Shown: positions 53,936-62,116 of the stretch, one piece after another
Position numbering within the stretch: the first letter of the stretch is position 1
Layout: every line of letters begins with the position of its first letter
Assembly: GCA_003170475.1 (NCBI GenBank)
Contig: PMZI01000081.1
Coordinates: forward strand, 13,558 to 77,557
DNA length: 64,000 bases
Reading direction: 5' to 3'
Source: Ignavibacteriota bacterium
Lineage (GTDB): Bacteria; Bacteroidota; Ignavibacteria; UBA10030
Notes under the pieces: generated by a model
Databases searched by the model: none
What the model was told of the DNA's origin: nothing
The model's input: the letters and a program-made list of their open reading frames with translations, nothing else
Made by a program: the position numbers and the translations under genes

Positions 53936-55258
53936 CTACTTCCCGTATCGCTCCTCATAGTACTTTCTGATTTTCTCCAACTGCTCCTTGCTCATTCCTT
54001 TCAAGTACCATTCGTGTCGGACATCCTGCTCGAGGTATTTCTTCACGAGCATCGCGTACAGCTCGGGTCCGGCGACCTGCTTGACCTCCGGCAGGAATTC
54101 GCTATAAAACTTCTTGGCCACCTCGTAGATCCCATGCCACCAGGCGTAGTCAGGGCCTGACATCGCAGCTCCATGTCTTGCCCGCCGGCCTTCGTGGTGC
54201 CAAAGCTCGTAGTAGATCCAATCCAGTTTGTCATCAAAATCGGCCGGCGTCAGTTTCCCCGCATCGATCAAATCCTGCCTCATGCCCATCGCTGGTCTGG
54301 CAAATTTCTCGTTGTAGAAGACAACAAGGTTGTCGAACTGGTTGTAGAAGCCATCCACGAAGGGGGAGGAGTGACAGCTGGAGCAGACATCTTTCATGTC
54401 GTCTCGTCGCTTCTCGGCATTCTCCAGTTTCTTTGATATTGCCGGTCTCAACGTCCAACTGATCCTTGTCCCGACATCGTGAGTGACCGGCTGATTTGGC
54501 GTCGCGCTCATATGACAAGTTGCGCATGTCGGTGCAGCCGAATAGTCTTTACCAACGATCCACGACTTCTTCTCCATATTCAATTGCGCTTTGTTGGCTT
54601 CGTACAGAATCCCATGTTTCGATTCCTGATAGACCTCGATCTGCGGATGGTCCGGTCCAAGGTGGCATTTGCCGCATGTCTGTGGCTCCCGAGCTTGTGC
54701 CCGTGAAAACCGATGACGGGTATGGCACGCGGAACAGGAACCTTTGGAGCCGTCAGGATTGATACGCCCGATACCAGTATTGGGCCAGGAGTTGATGTCC
54801 AGTTTTCCTCCCGGAAGCACTTTCACTTTCGCGCCATGGCATTGCAGGCAGCCGACCGCCACCGCCTCGGGTCCTCCAAGAACCTCTCCGAGGTAATTGT
54901 CGAGAGAATTCAGAATGTCTCCCGCCATTGCATGATGGCTGTTGGTCATCTCCAGCACTTCCTTCGCATGACATCGGCCGCAATCTTTGGGAGTAACGAG
55001 AATGGCGATCGTAAAACCGTTATGTTCCATCGCATCAGGATCTGTCTTCTCTGCCTTGTGGCAGGTATAACAGTCCACCCCCTTAGCCGCGTGGCTGCTG
55101 AGTTGCCACTCCTTCACGAAGGAAGGTGAGAGCTCTTTGTGACATTCAATGCAGGCTTTTCCCTCTTTTGACAGTGGAATTGTCTGGGAATGCGAATCGC
55201 AAGTCGTGATCAGGAATCCGCAGATGATGAACATCAGGAAGGTGAGGTGTCTTCGCAT
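53936..55258 (-). CDS. Octaheme c-type cytochrome, HAO-like
   Basis: A 440-residue exported cytochrome with eight CxxCH sites at residues 36, 63, 93, 137, 175, 195, 245 and 292, followed by a helical C-terminal third. Eight hemes, length and the 'YQESKHGILYEANK' segment match the hydroxylamine oxidoreductase (HAO) family of octaheme proteins. I saw no clear equivalent of the cross-linking tyrosine of true ammonia-oxidiser HAO, so a reductive nitrogen role like epsilonproteobacterial HAO is more likely. An N-terminal hydrophobic segment (residues 5-20) ends at Cys20 in 'LITTC', a poor lipobox. The start has GAGGG upstream. No electron-transfer partner (NapC/NrfH type) is adjacent, so it may be soluble in the periplasm. 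Confidence 0.88.
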   Translation of the reverse strand: MRRHLTFLMFIICGFLITTCDSHSQTIPLSKEGKACIECHKELSPSFVKEWQLSSHAAKGVDCYTCHKAEKTDPDAMEHNGFTIAILVTPKDCGRCHAKEVLEMTNSHHAMAGDILNSLDNYLGEVLGGPEAVAVGCLQCHGAKVKVLPGGKLDINSWPNTGIGRINPDGSKGSCSACHTRHRFSRAQAREPQTCGKCHLGPDHPQIEVYQESKHGILYEANKAQLNMEKKSWIVGKDYSAAPTCATCHMSATPNQPVTHDVGTRISWTLRPAISKKLENAEKRRDDMKDVCSSCHSSPFVDGFYNQFDNLVVFYNEKFARPAMGMRQDLIDAGKLTPADFDDKLDWIYYELWHHEGRRARHGAAMSGPDYAWWHGIYEVAKKFYSEFLPEVKQVAGPELYAMLVKKYLEQDVRHEWYLKGMSKEQLEKIRKYYEERYGK

Positions 55259-55497: not shown

Positions 55498-55983
55498 ATG
55501 ACAAGATCCACCGCCGTTGTGATCGCATGTCTATTGTCCGTTTTGTTTCTTTCCCCATTCTCGGTTCAAGCGCAACTCGCAACGAAGAAGGCCCTCACCC
55601 TTGAGGCCGCGAAGAAACTTGCGTCGGTTGCCGAAGCTGAAGCGCTCAAAAACAAGTGGACGATGGTCATCGCCATCGTTGACGACGGAGGAAATCTTCT
55701 CTTTCTGGAACGAATGGACAACACGCAAATCGGCAGTATCGAGGTGGCGATTCAGAAGGCGAAGTCGGCAATATTCTTCAAGCGCCCTACGAAGGCCTAT
55801 GAGGACCTGGTTGCACAAGGCAAAACAGATATCCTTGGTGTGCCGGGAGTTATTCCTATCGAAGGCGGGTTGCCGCTCGTTGTCGATGGACAATATGTCG
55901 GTGCCATTGGAATCAGTGGCGGCACGCGACAGCAAGATGGCATCGTTGTGAAAGCCGCCGTCGATGCTTTTCCGGCTCAGTAG
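55498..55983 (+). CDS. Exported GlcG/HbpS-like protein
   Basis: A 161-residue protein. A signal peptide (to about 'FSVQAQ') precedes a complete GlcG/HbpS (DUF336) domain: 'LTLEAAKKLASVAEAEALKN', 'WTMVIAIVDDGGNLLFLERM', 'SIEVAIQKAKSAIFFKRPT', 'GVPGVIPIEGGLPLVVDGQY' and 'VGAIGISGG'. HbpS binds heme in Streptomyces and GlcG is linked to glycolate use; other members bind cobalamin-like or flavin ligands. Exported copies probably bind a small ligand. The ATG follows a strong AGGAGGT. It heads a run of secreted-protein genes on the same strand. A heme link with the neighbouring octaheme cytochrome is possible but unproven. Confidence 0.88.
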   Translation: MTRSTAVVIACLLSVLFLSPFSVQAQLATKKALTLEAAKKLASVAEAEALKNKWTMVIAIVDDGGNLLFLERMDNTQIGSIEVAIQKAKSAIFFKRPTKAYEDLVAQGKTDILGVPGVIPIEGGLPLVVDGQYVGAIGISGGTRQQDGIVVKAAVDAFPAQ

Positions 55984-56029
55984 CGTGACCGTGATTCACC
56001 GGATTCAGAACACATCCAGCGTAGGACAA

Positions 56030-56725
56030 ATGAGAACGCACACCGCGAAAATGAAACGAATCCTCTTTGCATCGCTTGTTTCCTGCCTGGTCGTCGTAAT
56101 ATTCCAATCATGCTCATCATCAAAGGGAGTTGCCGTGTCTACAGATGTCAATGTTGTCAAATGGCAATTGGGTGGATTGATCGCAGATTCGAAATCCGGC
56201 AATCCGTCAACCATCCATTCCCCTTACGGAGAAGCGGTTCAGTTCGACGGAAAGGGAGATGCGCTGTTTCTCGATAAGAATCCGATCATGAACCTCCGCC
56301 AATTCACCGTTGAAGTCGTTTTCCGACCCGATCCCAAGAGCCAATTTGAACAACGCTTTCTGCACATGGGCGAAGTCAACGGCGACCGGATGTTGATTGA
56401 ACTCAGGATGACGGAAGAAAGTCAATGGTATCTTGACGCTTTCATCAAGTCGGGCGATTCATCGAAGGCTCTGATCGACAAGAGCCTGCTCCACCCGGCC
56501 GGGGAATGGTATCACATTGCGCTTGTTGTCGATGATGGCAAGATGGACACCTACGTCGCAGGCAAGCAAGAATTGGAGGGAAAGGTCGTCTTCTCTCCGT
56601 TCAAGCGTGGCGGAACCTCGATTGGCTCGCGCATGAACAAGGTTTCCTGGTTTCAAGGAGCGATCGCGCGGATCAGGATCACGCCGAAGTGTCTGAAGCC
56701 TTCCGAGTTTACACTGTCTCGCTGA
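56030..56725 (+). CDS. LamG-domain lipoprotein
   Basis: About 231 residues. A lipoprotein leader with lipobox IFQSC is followed by a single concanavalin-A-like/LamG sandwich ('AVQFDGKGDALFLDKNPIMN', 'FTVEVVFRPDP', 'GEWYHIALVVDDGKMDTYVA', 'SIGSRMNKVSWFQGAIARIR'). Such domains bind sugars or proteins at the cell surface. Two starts are possible: 56030 (GGA nearby) or the ATG at 56051, which gives the more usual MKR leader. It lies 18 nt ahead of the secreted PPC-domain gene. The large protein at 57.4 kb also begins with a LamG domain. Confidence 0.8.
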   Translation: MRTHTAKMKRILFASLVSCLVVVIFQSCSSSKGVAVSTDVNVVKWQLGGLIADSKSGNPSTIHSPYGEAVQFDGKGDALFLDKNPIMNLRQFTVEVVFRPDPKSQFEQRFLHMGEVNGDRMLIELRMTEESQWYLDAFIKSGDSSKALIDKSLLHPAGEWYHIALVVDDGKMDTYVAGKQELEGKVVFSPFKRGGTSIGSRMNKVSWFQGAIARIRITPKCLKPSEFTLSR

Positions 56726-56743: not shown

Positions 56744-57292
56744 ATGAAGCAAGTGTTCTGTATCCTTGCATTCCTGGCGATGTGCCACACCGCGATTGCT
56801 CAACAAACCCGCTCAGAGGTCACCAAGCCGACAACGCCGACAGACGATGCAAAACCCAACAGCCCGTCCGTTCCCGATGTCTATGCCATTGAGGGACAAT
56901 TCGATCGCGTCCTGGTCCTTCGCTTCAAGTACCAAGCGGATTTGTTGGCGGGACTCGAAGCCATGGTGAAAGAGCACAAGATCCGGAATGCAGTGATCCT
57001 GGCCGGAGCCGGATCTGTTACGGGTTATCACTTCCATGGGGTCAGCAATCGGACCTTTCCATCGAAGAACGTCTATGTGAAGGATCCCACCGCGCCTGCT
57101 GACATTGTGAGCATGAACGGATATGTCATCGACGGGCGTCTGCATGTGCACATGACCCTGACGAATCCCGACAATGCCTTCGGCGGTCACCTCGAATCAG
57201 GAACCACAGTGTTTACTTTTGCCATCGTCACCGTTGGCGTGTTCAAAGACGGAATTGATCTCAGTCGTATTGACGACAAGACGTACCGCTAG
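56744..57292 (+). CDS. Exported PPC/DUF296-domain protein
   Basis: A 182-residue protein with an N-terminal signal peptide (to about 'TAIAQQ'), a proline/threonine-rich linker (25-45) and one PPC domain (plants and prokaryotes conserved, DUF296). The metal-binding pattern of the family is present: 'GRLHVHMTLTNPDNAFGGHL', two His in HxH and a third in GGH. PPC domains are usually cytoplasmic, in plant AT-hook DNA-binding proteins and bacterial single-domain proteins. An exported copy is therefore unusual and argues for a ligand-binding or enzymatic role rather than DNA binding. The ribosome site is GGGGG upstream of the ATG. The gene is followed immediately by a hairpin. Confidence 0.85.
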   Translation: MKQVFCILAFLAMCHTAIAQQTRSEVTKPTTPTDDAKPNSPSVPDVYAIEGQFDRVLVLRFKYQADLLAGLEAMVKEHKIRNAVILAGAGSVTGYHFHGVSNRTFPSKNVYVKDPTAPADIVSMNGYVIDGRLHVHMTLTNPDNAFGGHLESGTTVFTFAIVTVGVFKDGIDLSRIDDKTYR

Positions 57293-57385: not shown

Positions 57386-60300
57386 ATGAATCGACTTTTG
57401 CATTGCTTAAGGAATCCGTTGGCCCTCGCATTCTGCGCATTCGTTCTTGTCATGGCGTGTTCCTTACCCTCTGTCATCGCTCAGCAGAAGCAAGAGCCCG
57501 GTCTTCTGTTCTATCTCTCTGGAAGTCAGGGCTTCAAAGCGGATTATTCGGCGGGAGGGAAGGCGGACCCAAACTTCTTGCGCGACGTGAAGATTATTCC
57601 CAATGGTGCCAAAGGTCCCGGTTTTGAATGTGCCAATGATCAACTTTTTTCGTACTGGGCCCCAGGAAACATCTACGCAGAACGGGGCACGCTGAGTTTC
57701 TTCTGGAGATCAAGGGAGACAGTAGGGAAGACTGAGTTTCCCATTTTCCGCGTAGGGTTCGCGGATCATTCAAGCTGGGACATGGTTTGGCTTCGTTTCG
57801 ACTACAATGGCCACGGATTTGACGCGTTTGTAACGGACGCGAATCTTGCACGTGTGCGAGTTTCCTGCACGATGGCACCGTTTCCCAAACCGGACTCATG
57901 GATACATCTTGCGCTGGCGTGGGACGAAACGTCAGGCATACGATTCTATGTGAACGGAAAGCTCGCTGCGAAGAAAGACAGCGTTGTTGTGCTCTCGACG
58001 GGTCTCGATCAATTCGGACCGCATTCACGTATCATCAGTCCGACGCAAGTGCAAAGCGCGTACAACTTTCAGCGAGGAGGAGACATCGACGAAATCCGCA
58101 TCTATGATCGGATGCTGTCGGATGGAAACATTCTTCGGTTGTCCAAAGGCGATGACTCCGGCAAAGTCCCGGAACTTGCCCGAACTCTCAGCAACCCCCA
58201 GTGGCGGGCCGAGTGGCGCTTGCGGTACGGATGGAATAGGGAAGGAGACGTTCCTCCCTACGTCGACCAGCCGGCAACCCGGGTGAGGAAGGTTGAGATT
58301 CAGGATGTTTACGATTTGAAACGATGGTGGTGGAAGGCAACCGACGGAATCCGCGAGACAACGTGGCCGGGTGTCTACAACCGCTCACGTCTTCCAGGCC
58401 GCAACGACTATTTTCAGCTGCCTGATTGGGACTGCTATTCGCTTTCCGGCAAGGCGGTCACGTTCTTCATGCCGGACGAACCCTGGAATCATCTCGAGAT
58501 CTCGGGTGCAGCATGGGGAACCATGTCGCTGGTTGCCTCAGGCAAAGATGGTGCGGGGACAATATTGTTCGAGCGTGCGAAAGGACAGGAGAAAACATTT
58601 CATCGTCTTGCAGAACCTCTCCGCGGCAAGAAAATCCAGTTTACCAACGTGGAGCAGGAAGTTCCGATTGGCGAACTGTCAGCATATTATGTTGATGCGG
58701 GGAAAGAGCCAACGGGCTCATGCGTGGTGAGTTACTCCTTATCTTCTGTCTCTCTCGGATTGATGGATCAGGTCAAGCCGTTGGTGGATTTCATCGACGG
58801 TCGATACTCGCCCGATGAACAATCAACAATGATCGCAGTCCCGGCAGCATTGCCTCAAGTCAAGCATTCGGCGATGAGTCGCTCACTTCCGCTCGTACAC
58901 ATTCTCGTACCATATGATTCGCGGATTGGGACCGCGTTCAACAGTCTGGACTCTTCGTACAGCTGGCAAAACATCGACGGCGGACTGGACGGCATCGCCA
59001 TTGACCTTCCTGCAATGAAGCTGAAACCTACTCACGGGCAATTCGTGCCCATGAACATTCAGATCAAAGATCCGAACTGGCCAGCGCGGAACATGCTCGA
59101 CTTCTCTTTCTCTGTGAAACCGGGTGAAGCCCGCACGCTGTGGCTTGATACCCGTGATCGGATCCTCGCGAAAGGAAAAAGCCTTTACCTGACAATCGCT
59201 TCGGCGTCACCGGAATTCGCTCCGCAGATTCTGGAGGGAGCACAGATCAGGTTGATCTTCAAGCCCACGAAGGAAGCCTTCCGCGAGCACGTACAGGATC
59301 GCTTCACCCAGGTGCGCGACAACTTCGCAAACTGGGTGGAGGAGCGTGCGAGCGACCCGCGGTTGAACCTGTATAATCGACTGATGTCGGACTTGAAGGA
59401 TCTCCTGACCGTAGACCCCAAGCACTACCCCGGCCAAAGTTATTGGTACGATCTTGACCATTCGCACTCCAAGCCGGCGTTTGTTCAAACCGCATGTCCT
59501 GACGGAATTCCCCTCTGGGCGTTTCGGCAGGTGGAGGATCTTCGATACTTCAATCGATTTGTGACGTGGTGGATCGACAAACGCCAGATTGAAAACGGCG
59601 AGCTTGGCGGCGGTCTCTCTGACGATGACGACCTCACGAACTGCTGGCCGGGAGCTGCCTTGATGGGGGCGGAACCGGATAAGATCCGCACCGCCGTCCT
59701 GAAGTTGCTGGATGCGATCTACGACCAAGGGATGTTTACGAACGGACTTTCATCAATACAGACGGATGGCCTCCATGCACACGAGGAGGGAATCGAGGCA
59801 CAAACGCAAGCGATGCTTGTTGACTACGGCAGCCCGAAACAGGTTGAACGCATCATGGAAACCGTCAAGGCGCTTGATGAACGGCTGATTCAGAAGAACA
59901 ACGTCGGACATCGCCATTTCCGTTCAAGTTACTTCAGTGGGACAAAACTGGCTGACGAAGGTGTCTGGGAGTGGTCGCTTCAGCCTCAGGAGTTTCTGCT
60001 TCTCCAGCCGGTGTTGACGCTCGCGGAATTCAACGGCAACGCCCGAGCACGCCAGCTAGCAATCGATGTAGCCGATGGATTACTTGCGCATGCAAGAAAA
60101 GACGAAAACGGAAAGATCGTCATCGACTATCAGATCAACTTCTCCACCGATGCGAGCCGTCCTTCTCCCCTTGGCTCGAAGGGTATGCTTGCCTCGAGCA
60201 TGGGTGACGGAGCGACGATCAGCACGTCGTCAGCAGGACTGCAACTCCTCTGGGTAGTCTATAGAATGACAGGGGAGAAGAAGTATTTACAGCCATTGCT

Positions 60301-62116
60301 TGATCTTGGCGACGGGGTGTTGGGATTGCTTTGTCCGGATGCCTTGGATTTGCTCGACATGAGGGATACATGGGGAAAGCAGATCGTCGAAAAGACGAAC
60401 CCGGCCAGCGGACCGGATCTCTTCCGGCACATCGCATGGCAGATGACAGGGAACAAGGCGTTCCTCGAAAACTATTACACCGAACAAATTGAAGAGACGG
60501 CTCTTCGCGAATACATCAACACGGAAGGTTCCCTTTGGAGTGATCGTGTGTACGCAGCCAACCGTGAGCTGCAGCGATCGAGACTAGGTGGCGTTGCGTT
60601 AGTGCGGGGGGCCATTCACAGCGGTCACAGCGTGAGCTGGAGATTCAAGGCGCCAGCCAAAGACGAAAGTGCAGCAATCCTTGTGCAAAAAGCAACACCT
60701 TCGGAACTCAAGATCATTGCCTTCGCCCTGGACGCGAAGCCCGTTAATGTGACGATGACAGCCTGGGGCATCGAGCCCGGAGTGTGGGAGATTGTGCAGG
60801 GAATCGATACGAATGGAGATGAGAAGGCCGATACGGTTCTTTCAAAACGGACGGTCGCGCTGGAGAGAAGCAAGAGCATAGACCTGACATTCGATCCGCG
60901 CAAAACCACCATACTCACGATGCAACTCTTGTCGAAGTCGACTCCCTATGCCCAGCGGCCGGATCTTGGAATCAGCAAGGAAGACATTGTGTTGAAGGAA
61001 AACATGATTCACGTGAGAGTGCACAGTCTCGGTTCAGTTACTGCTCCGGCGACGAAAGTGGCACTGCTGGAGAATGGGAAGACCATCGCCATCGCCCCGG
61101 TACCTGAGCTGCAGGCCCCCAACGATCTCCTGCCGAAATTCGCCGATATCCTGCTTCCGGTTCCACCGAGCGCTCATCTGCAGAAGTGCAGCGTTCAGGT
61201 CGATCCGGAGAAGAAGCTGAACGAAATCACTTTTATGAATAACACCATAGATCTCAACGGGAGCTTTGACATGAGTTCGAATTCACAGGACAAGAAACGG
61301 GCAGACCAGATTGGCACGCCGAAGATGCAACCGAGGCCGGAGCATATTGCATTCAATGTGAAAGATCCGGCAGCGGTGGCGAAATGGTACGGCGAACATC
61401 TGGGCATGAAGATCATCCGGAAGAGTCCTCCGCCGGCGAACACCCATTTCATCGCCGATTCTGCAGTCAACATGATGCTCGAGCTGTACAACAACCCGAG
61501 CGTCCCTGTCCCCGACTACAGCTCCTGGAGTCACATGTCGCTGCATCTCGCGTTCATGGTTGACGACGTGAAAGCAATTCGGGATTCTCTCCGTGCCGCC
61601 GGTGCGACGCTGGTCGAAGACGTGACAACGACTCCCATTGGTGACCAGGTCCTGATGATGCGAGATCCCTGGGGCCTGTCTATCCAGTTCGTGAAGCGTA
61701 TTGCGCCCATGTTGAAACCCACAGGTCTGCGTTTTGAACACCTTGCACTCAACGTTCCGGATCCGCAGAGCATGACGAACTGGTATTTCGAGAACATGGG
61801 AATGAAAGTGATCCGCAAAGGCACACCGCCAACCTACACGAACTTCATCGCAGACGCCGGAGGTAACATGATGATGGAGTTGTTCCACAATAGCGCATTT
61901 CCGATGCTCGATCTTTCGAAGGTTCCCCATCTCGCACTTCACTTCGCCTTCATCCTGGACGATGTTCGCTCCATCCGCACGAATCTGATCGGTGCCGGAG
62001 CAACGCTGGCGGAAGAGTTTCGAGAGACCAATGCAGGGGATCAGGTTCTTGTGCTGCGTGATCCGTGGGGACTGGCGATCCAGTTCATTAAACGCGGCGA
62101 ACAGATGCTGAAATAG
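57386..62116 (+). CDS. Giant exported LamG / alpha-toroid / CARDB / double-VOC protein
   Basis: A 1576-residue exported protein. After a signal peptide (to about 'SVIAQQ') come: a LamG-like sandwich (about 40-255, 'DSWIHLALAWDETSGIRFYV'); a beta-rich region (about 270-640); a long helical region (about 650-1120) with 'GELGGGLSDDDDLTNCWPGA' and 'HAHEEGIEAQTQ' that looks like the (alpha/alpha)6 toroid of polysaccharide lyases or glycosidases; a CARDB-like Ig domain (about 1185-1300); and two tandem VOC (glyoxalase/bleomycin-resistance) domains, 1316-1440 ('EHIAFNVKDPAAVAKWYGEH', H1320) and 1447-1576 ('EHLALNVPDPQSMTNWYFEN', H1452). No stop or frame break separates the parts. Only the overall fold types can be proposed; VOC domains on a secreted glycosidase-like protein are very unusual. 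Confidence 0.72.
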   Translation: MNRLLHCLRNPLALAFCAFVLVMACSLPSVIAQQKQEPGLLFYLSGSQGFKADYSAGGKADPNFLRDVKIIPNGAKGPGFECANDQLFSYWAPGNIYAERGTLSFFWRSRETVGKTEFPIFRVGFADHSSWDMVWLRFDYNGHGFDAFVTDANLARVRVSCTMAPFPKPDSWIHLALAWDETSGIRFYVNGKLAAKKDSVVVLSTGLDQFGPHSRIISPTQVQSAYNFQRGGDIDEIRIYDRMLSDGNILRLSKGDDSGKVPELARTLSNPQWRAEWRLRYGWNREGDVPPYVDQPATRVRKVEIQDVYDLKRWWWKATDGIRETTWPGVYNRSRLPGRNDYFQLPDWDCYSLSGKAVTFFMPDEPWNHLEISGAAWGTMSLVASGKDGAGTILFERAKGQEKTFHRLAEPLRGKKIQFTNVEQEVPIGELSAYYVDAGKEPTGSCVVSYSLSSVSLGLMDQVKPLVDFIDGRYSPDEQSTMIAVPAALPQVKHSAMSRSLPLVHILVPYDSRIGTAFNSLDSSYSWQNIDGGLDGIAIDLPAMKLKPTHGQFVPMNIQIKDPNWPARNMLDFSFSVKPGEARTLWLDTRDRILAKGKSLYLTIASASPEFAPQILEGAQIRLIFKPTKEAFREHVQDRFTQVRDNFANWVEERASDPRLNLYNRLMSDLKDLLTVDPKHYPGQSYWYDLDHSHSKPAFVQTACPDGIPLWAFRQVEDLRYFNRFVTWWIDKRQIENGELGGGLSDDDDLTNCWPGAALMGAEPDKIRTAVLKLLDAIYDQGMFTNGLSSIQTDGLHAHEEGIEAQTQAMLVDYGSPKQVERIMETVKALDERLIQKNNVGHRHFRSSYFSGTKLADEGVWEWSLQPQEFLLLQPVLTLAEFNGNARARQLAIDVADGLLAHARKDENGKIVIDYQINFSTDASRPSPLGSKGMLASSMGDGATISTSSAGLQLLWVVYRMTGEKKYLQPLLDLGDGVLGLLCPDALDLLDMRDTWGKQIVEKTNPASGPDLFRHIAWQMTGNKAFLENYYTEQIEETALREYINTEGSLWSDRVYAANRELQRSRLGGVALVRGAIHSGHSVSWRFKAPAKDESAAILVQKATPSELKIIAFALDAKPVNVTMTAWGIEPGVWEIVQGIDTNGDEKADTVLSKRTVALERSKSIDLTFDPRKTTILTMQLLSKSTPYAQRPDLGISKEDIVLKENMIHVRVHSLGSVTAPATKVALLENGKTIAIAPVPELQAPNDLLPKFADILLPVPPSAHLQKCSVQVDPEKKLNEITFMNNTIDLNGSFDMSSNSQDKKRADQIGTPKMQPRPEHIAFNVKDPAAVAKWYGEHLGMKIIRKSPPPANTHFIADSAVNMMLELYNNPSVPVPDYSSWSHMSLHLAFMVDDVKAIRDSLRAAGATLVEDVTTTPIGDQVLMMRDPWGLSIQFVKRIAPMLKPTGLRFEHLALNVPDPQSMTNWYFENMGMKVIRKGTPPTYTNFIADAGGNMMMELFHNSAFPMLDLSKVPHLALHFAFILDDVRSIRTNLIGAGATLAEEFRETNAGDQVLVLRDPWGLAIQFIKRGEQMLK

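Follow-up and report, generated by a model that had tools for sequence, protein, structure and literature searches.

An exported LamG-containing protein joined in one frame to a pair of VOC domains in Ignavibacteriota, with a possible role in pectin breakdown

Domain architecture of the fusion protein

The window analyzed in this work (64,000 nucleotides of contig PMZI01000081.1 from an Ignavibacteriota bacterium) contains, at 57386-62116 of the forward strand, a single open frame of 1,576 codons with zero internal stops, in which a LamG-containing part (hereafter the body) is followed by two VOC domains. This raises the question whether the frame corresponds to a genuine protein and, if so, what the body and the VOC pair could do together. 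The host genome (G000) is a 4.08 Mb draft. The frame was divided into the following features:

57386..57487, + strand: putative signal peptide, residues 1 to about 34 (the sequence opens with basic residues, followed by a hydrophobic core and an A-Q-Q boundary)
57491..58156, + strand: LamG/concanavalin-like sandwich, residues 36-257 (PF13385, E 1.3e-10)
58157..59212, + strand: beta-rich region without a known family, residues 258-609 (predicted strands, mostly well-scored)
59213..60610, + strand: helical toroid-like region without a Pfam family, residues 610-1075 (alignments A3 and A5; helices in the model)
60611..60943, + strand: predicted beta-sandwich 3' of the helical region, residues 1076-1186 (strands in the model)
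60944..61261, + strand: probable CARDB domain, residues 1187-1292 (PF07705, E 2.7e-4; fold match)
61262..61327, + strand: linker between CARDB and VOC1, residues 1293-1314 (fast-evolving, low pLDDT)
61328..61705, + strand: VOC domain 1, residues 1315-1440 (PF00903; predicted metal ligands H1320, E1366, H1387, Q1434)
61706..62113, + strand: VOC domain 2, residues 1441-1576 (PF00903; predicted metal ligands H1452, E1498, H1519, Q1566)

The Pfam search assigned residues 101-249 to Laminin_G_3 (PF13385; 42.1 bits, cut-off 27.6), which makes the protein a member of the LamG family, and reported the glyoxalase family (PF00903) twice, at residues 1319-1435 and, as a second copy, near 1449-1570 (E 1.9e-25). 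The probable CARDB domain (PF07705, residues 1193-1287) scored 21.5 bits, slightly under the Pfam cut-off of 22.7, and gains support from fold matches of the predicted structure (3idu, Z 9.1; 2l0d, Z 10.2). LamG and CARDB are binding or spacing domains. The stretch of about 900 residues between LamG and the C-terminal domains has no Pfam family; its beta-rich part (residues 258-609) is kept across 59 homologues. The first-pass annotation, which had listed LamG, a helical toroid, a CARDB-like domain and two VOC domains in one frame, was thus right in its inventory, with CARDB borderline by profile. It had also proposed that the protein is exported. The N-terminus, MNRLLHCLRNPLALAFCAFVLVMACSLPSVIAQQ, reads by eye as a signal peptide and a hydrophobic leader is also present on homologues of the body, which agrees with probable export.

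Conservation of the fusion

A search covering 100 relatives revealed the fused architecture in 5 other Ignavibacteriota genomes, of which 4 encode it intact and full-length (G003, 82% identity to the window protein; G028 and G030, 72%; G002, 68%) and one (G031) has it split over two contigs. The records L024, L023 and L069 of the named genome collection appear to be the same genomes as G003, G028 and G030 (identical frame lengths and identities) and were counted once. No stop was found between the body and the VOC domains among the relatives that have the body and a visible C-terminus. A missed stop or frameshift had been suspected near 61260-61340, but the further assemblies have an uninterrupted frame across this join, which excludes such an error at the junction. 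The suggestion of a gene fusion conserved in other species is borne out by these intact frames: the body-VOC fusion is real and not an artefact.

Comparison with L024 gave dN/dS values of 0.04 (LamG), 0.04 (helical region) and 0.07 (VOC2), indicative of purifying selection; in VOC1 the synonymous sites are saturated with respect to L024 and dN/dS is not measurable. VOC1 is 67-82% identical across the fused copies. The 22-residue linker before VOC1 exhibits only 28-58% identity, versus 66-82% in the VOC domains, as expected of a tether that joins folded domains.

Both parts also live apart, which does not imply that the fusion is an artefact. At the syntenic locus of G013, from the same genus as L023, the body and the adjacent HbpS-like gene (see below) have been lost and one 145-residue VOC is kept (L147:6875-7309, G013:C9); on the upstream side the 1,246-residue gene is still present, and so are the rubrerythrin-like and GTPase-like genes downstream. 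This VOC begins much like the VOC1 linker, and the sequence 3' of it can be aligned to the end of the VOC2 region, a pattern that recombination between the two VOC copies would produce; the locus indicates that loss of the body need not entail loss of the VOC. Tandem VOCs that are exported and free-standing are found in several Ignavibacteria (L007-L009, L017-L019), and L010 has a leaderless tandem VOC beside PCC and LamG genes. The first-pass annotation had named one observation that would argue against its reading, a separately encoded VOC in relatives with a stop in this region. A separate VOC does exist in relatives, but a stop at the junction is absent from those with the body and a visible C-terminus.

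The VOC domains

The PF00903 superfamily assignment is based on profile-recognized paired beta-alpha-beta-beta-beta modules and on metal ligands at four strand positions per domain. Of the 45 VOC domains compared (fused, free-standing tandem and single), 44 have His-Glu-His-Gln at the canonical metal positions, and the Gln at the fourth position is found in all 45. The sole exception is VOC1 of L069, in which the first ligand, His, is replaced by Tyr. The two domains of the pair would be arranged as in monomeric glyoxalase I, each with its own His-Glu-His-Gln site, and the invariance of the ligands suggests that the pair binds a divalent metal, in line with the metal-dependent binding proposed earlier. 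The isomerisation of a sugar product by the VOCs and a glycosidase or lyase activity of the body, also suggested in the first-pass annotation, stay hypothetical.

The predicted structure of the pair (mean pLDDT 84) resembles the tandem VOC folds of maize GLX1 (6bnx, 5d7z, 6bnz; Z 24.6, rmsd 3.3 over 259 residues for 6bnx) and human GLOD4 (3zi1, 9csj; Z about 21). Maize GLX1 shares His-Glu-His at three metal positions, but is only about 19% identical, and in the profile alignment the Gln of our domains corresponds to position 144, which is Glu in the wild-type maize enzyme and Gln in its E144Q mutant (6bnz). Moreover, unlike maize GLX1, the VOC pair described here is predicted to be exported and is fused to a LamG protein; GLOD4 (about 19-20% identity) likewise has no LamG fusion.

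Several known VOC functions were considered and rejected. Since the catalytic Glu of glyoxalase I is replaced by Gln, the VOC pair is probably not a glyoxalase I, and the corresponding models score far below their cut-offs (TIGR00068, 32.6 bits vs 120; NF050074, 14.4 vs 165). The same is true for methylmalonyl-CoA epimerase (TIGR03081, 25.2 bits vs 114.95). In extradiol dioxygenases and HPPD-type VOC enzymes the fourth position is the Glu of a His-His-Glu triad, whereas all domains analyzed here have Gln there.

In the tree of VOC domains, the fused VOC2 copies form one clade (100/99) and the free tandems split into their own first-domain and second-domain clades. The single VOCs of Verrucomicrobiota and Balneolota group together, apart from the domains of Ignavibacteriota, and the fused VOC1 copies branch basally within the Ignavibacteriota part, closest to these singles, in a midpoint-rooted tree that is poorly resolved in this region.

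The body

For the helical middle of the body (about residues 610-1075) AlphaFold gives confident alternating helices, and alignments A3 and A5 reveal two invariant motifs, RQxxxGE[FL]GGG..DD and DxLH..E.G. The toroid-like fold of the region is putative. The profile search of PDB and Pfam reported no significant match of this region to carbohydrate enzyme families; the best match to a toroid enzyme (GH88, GH105, GH127 and PL families were considered) was to the GH88 unsaturated glucuronyl hydrolases (3ani, 3wux), a similarity that is not significant (E 0.04) and is confined to an 85-residue stretch. The fold search with the body returned LamG matches only (e.g. the AbnA arabinanase 5hp6, Z 19.3). 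The matches to this arabinanase and to neurotoxin binding domains carry no functional hint, since the LamG jelly roll is common to them.

Distribution of the body and the VOC domains

Without the VOC domains, the body (residues 37-1290; 40-60% identity) is common in Acidobacteriota, Bacteroidota, Verrucomicrobiota and Pseudomonadota, and it is also present in Balneolota and in one record labelled Actinomycetota. In Ignavibacteriota, the close form was found only in the family of the window's bacterium (genera g1 and g9), and every copy with a visible C-terminus has the VOC domains. At 13 of the 25 Verrucomicrobiota loci with visible upstream sequence, a single VOC gene precedes the body on the same strand, within a distance of 1 kb. 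No such gene was found upstream of the body at the loci of Acidobacteriota (0/21), Bacteroidota (0/11) and Pseudomonadota (0/5). In these pairs the likely start of the body is mostly 18-102 bp (usually less than 110 bp) past the stop of the VOC gene; at one further locus (L050) an extra gene sits between the two. The Verrucomicrobiota loci are mutually related, so the 13 pairs are not 13 independent events, but the other neighbors vary widely among these loci, which indicates that the pair outlasts its surroundings. In the whole genomes searched, this kind of VOC nearly always occurs as one copy, which is usually located at the body gene; in one genome (G339) it lies elsewhere. The search of plasmids gave no VOC match. 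A fusion in one lineage and a gene pair in another (the 'Rosetta stone' pattern) argue that the VOC and the body act on the same substrate, and suggest that they work together.

Genomic neighborhood

Three genes precede the fusion in the window:

55498..55983, + strand: exported HbpS-like (DUF336/GlcG) gene, first in a likely operon (PF03928, E 2.5e-37)
55964..56725, + strand: small LamG gene, probably a lipoprotein (PF13385, E 4.4e-16)
56744..57292, + strand: exported PCC-domain gene (PF03479, E 3.3e-17)

Together with the body-VOC gene they are co-directional and separated by small gaps. The LamG-PCC-body order is kept in L024 and L005, and an HbpS-like gene adjoins the body-VOC gene in L023, L069 and L072, a free tandem VOC in L009 and L017, and a single VOC in L012. 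Outside Ignavibacteriota, an HbpS-like gene (L064:11818-12336, Opitutae) directly follows a body without VOC, which extends the HbpS-body pairing beyond this phylum. On the opposite strand of the window, a multi-haem cytochrome with CxxCH repeats (53936-55258, - strand) adjoins the HbpS-like gene, and its position is kept in L024.

Among 189 genes around the body in other phyla, 8 encode PL10 pectic acid lyases and 4 encode GH28 enzymes (raw counts). In Novosphingobium the body gene lies after a GH43 gene and before a small annotated LamG gene, with kduI, kduD and a sugar kinase gene a few kilobases off. L062 also encodes KduI near the body, and L144 does so near a free tandem VOC; the host genome of the fused gene carries KduI and two GH28 genes. 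These pectic neighbors, though present in a minority of the neighborhoods, and the KduI and GH28 genes of the host point to a pectic polymer that contains uronate as the most likely substrate.

Functional predictions

The explanation that we tentatively favor, giving it somewhat less than an even chance, is that a periplasmic or secreted pectin-associated body is fused to a metal-binding VOC pair that binds or converts the released uronate. The neighbors, the helical model and the invariant acidic, His and Arg residues suggest that the body (LamG, helical-toroid region and CARDB) is a polysaccharide-active enzyme of an undescribed family, probably acting on galacturonan or a rhamnogalacturonan fragment. 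The VOC pair would then probably bind or convert the uronate, whose adjacent oxygens could chelate the metal. Several observations stand against this explanation. The profile and fold searches identified no catalytic fold for the body, and the majority of body proteins lack a VOC in their vicinity. In Verrucomicrobiota the VOC has no visible signal peptide, whereas the body has one, and they may therefore operate in separate compartments in that phylum. Finally, the exported free-standing tandem VOCs of several Ignavibacteria imply that the VOC is also useful alone. We also speculate, as an unlikely but more specific variant, that the tandem VOC acts outside the cytoplasm on pectin-derived unsaturated or keto-deoxy uronates, as a metal-dependent isomerase or a ring-opening enzyme physically coupled to a polysaccharide-degrading enzyme; it would represent a new fold for the reactions of KduI and KdgF, both cupins, and would have a cytosolic counterpart in the gene pair of Opitutaceae.

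It is possible, if doubtful, that the VOC pair instead has no catalytic role and serves, with the help of its metal, as a ligand-binding module keeping an oligosaccharide or a small product of the breakdown close to the body. The replacement of the glyoxalase I base Glu by Gln, the presence of antibiotic-binding TnmS-type VOC proteins among the fold matches, and the flexible linker and CARDB, which would suit a tethered binding part, are consistent with such a role; however, a full four-residue metal site in both domains of nearly all copies is stricter than binding usually needs, and the remaining Glu could still serve as a base. A role of the VOC pair in detoxifying or sensing reactive carbonyls from pectin breakdown, together with the HbpS-like neighbor, seems rather improbable. 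It would agree with the adjacency of HbpS-like genes to VOCs with or without the body, with the closeness of the VOC fold to glyoxalase I, and with the fact that another DUF336 protein, EfgA, is a formaldehyde sensor (PMC8153426), but the base Glu of glyoxalase I is absent, EfgA and HbpS are only 23% identical, and the adjacency is found in only 3 of about 10 free-standing VOC loci. Far less probable still is a chance fusion without function or an assembly artefact, to which one might be led by the divergent linker and by the close relative that retains only a VOC at the locus. It is largely refuted by the open frames conserved in six genomes, and the conservation of VOC1, the purifying selection on VOC2 and the occurrence of the same two parts as a gene pair in Verrucomicrobiota also argue against it.

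If the uronate explanation is true, a VOC family takes part in the breakdown of plant polysaccharides beyond the cytoplasm, and a family of 1,250-residue 'LamG domain-containing proteins' from several phyla gains its first functional lead. The fusion and the gene pair tie together two proteins without an assigned function, and the prediction is testable in culturable Opitutaceae, Granulicella, Bryocella, Rhodanobacter and Novosphingobium.

Relation to known families

Every part of the protein can be placed in a known superfamily; for the body family the only annotation is 'LamG domain-containing protein'. In the open-licence papers searched, we found neither this architecture, nor the VOC clade with the His-Glu-His-Gln site, nor the tie between VOC and body, and nothing relevant on VOC or glyoxalase proteins together with pectin, lyases, LamG or uronate enzymes. 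A member of the annotated family from a Novosphingobium plasmid (WP_245652468.1) corresponds to the same body over 99% of its length (41-44% identity), but has no VOC domains, none nearby and no described function.

More distant relatives of the helical part (23-29% identity, 860-1030 aa) are encoded at L014:1492-4542 (- strand), L022:253-3345 (+ strand) and L015:385-2967 (+ strand); they exhibit the RQ..GE.GG..DD and D..H..E motifs, with no recognized LamG domain. An acidobacterial body (L035:3852-8561) carries a C-terminal GDSL lipase/esterase domain (residues 1347-1547) in the place of the VOC domains, i.e. another fusion at the same end of the protein.
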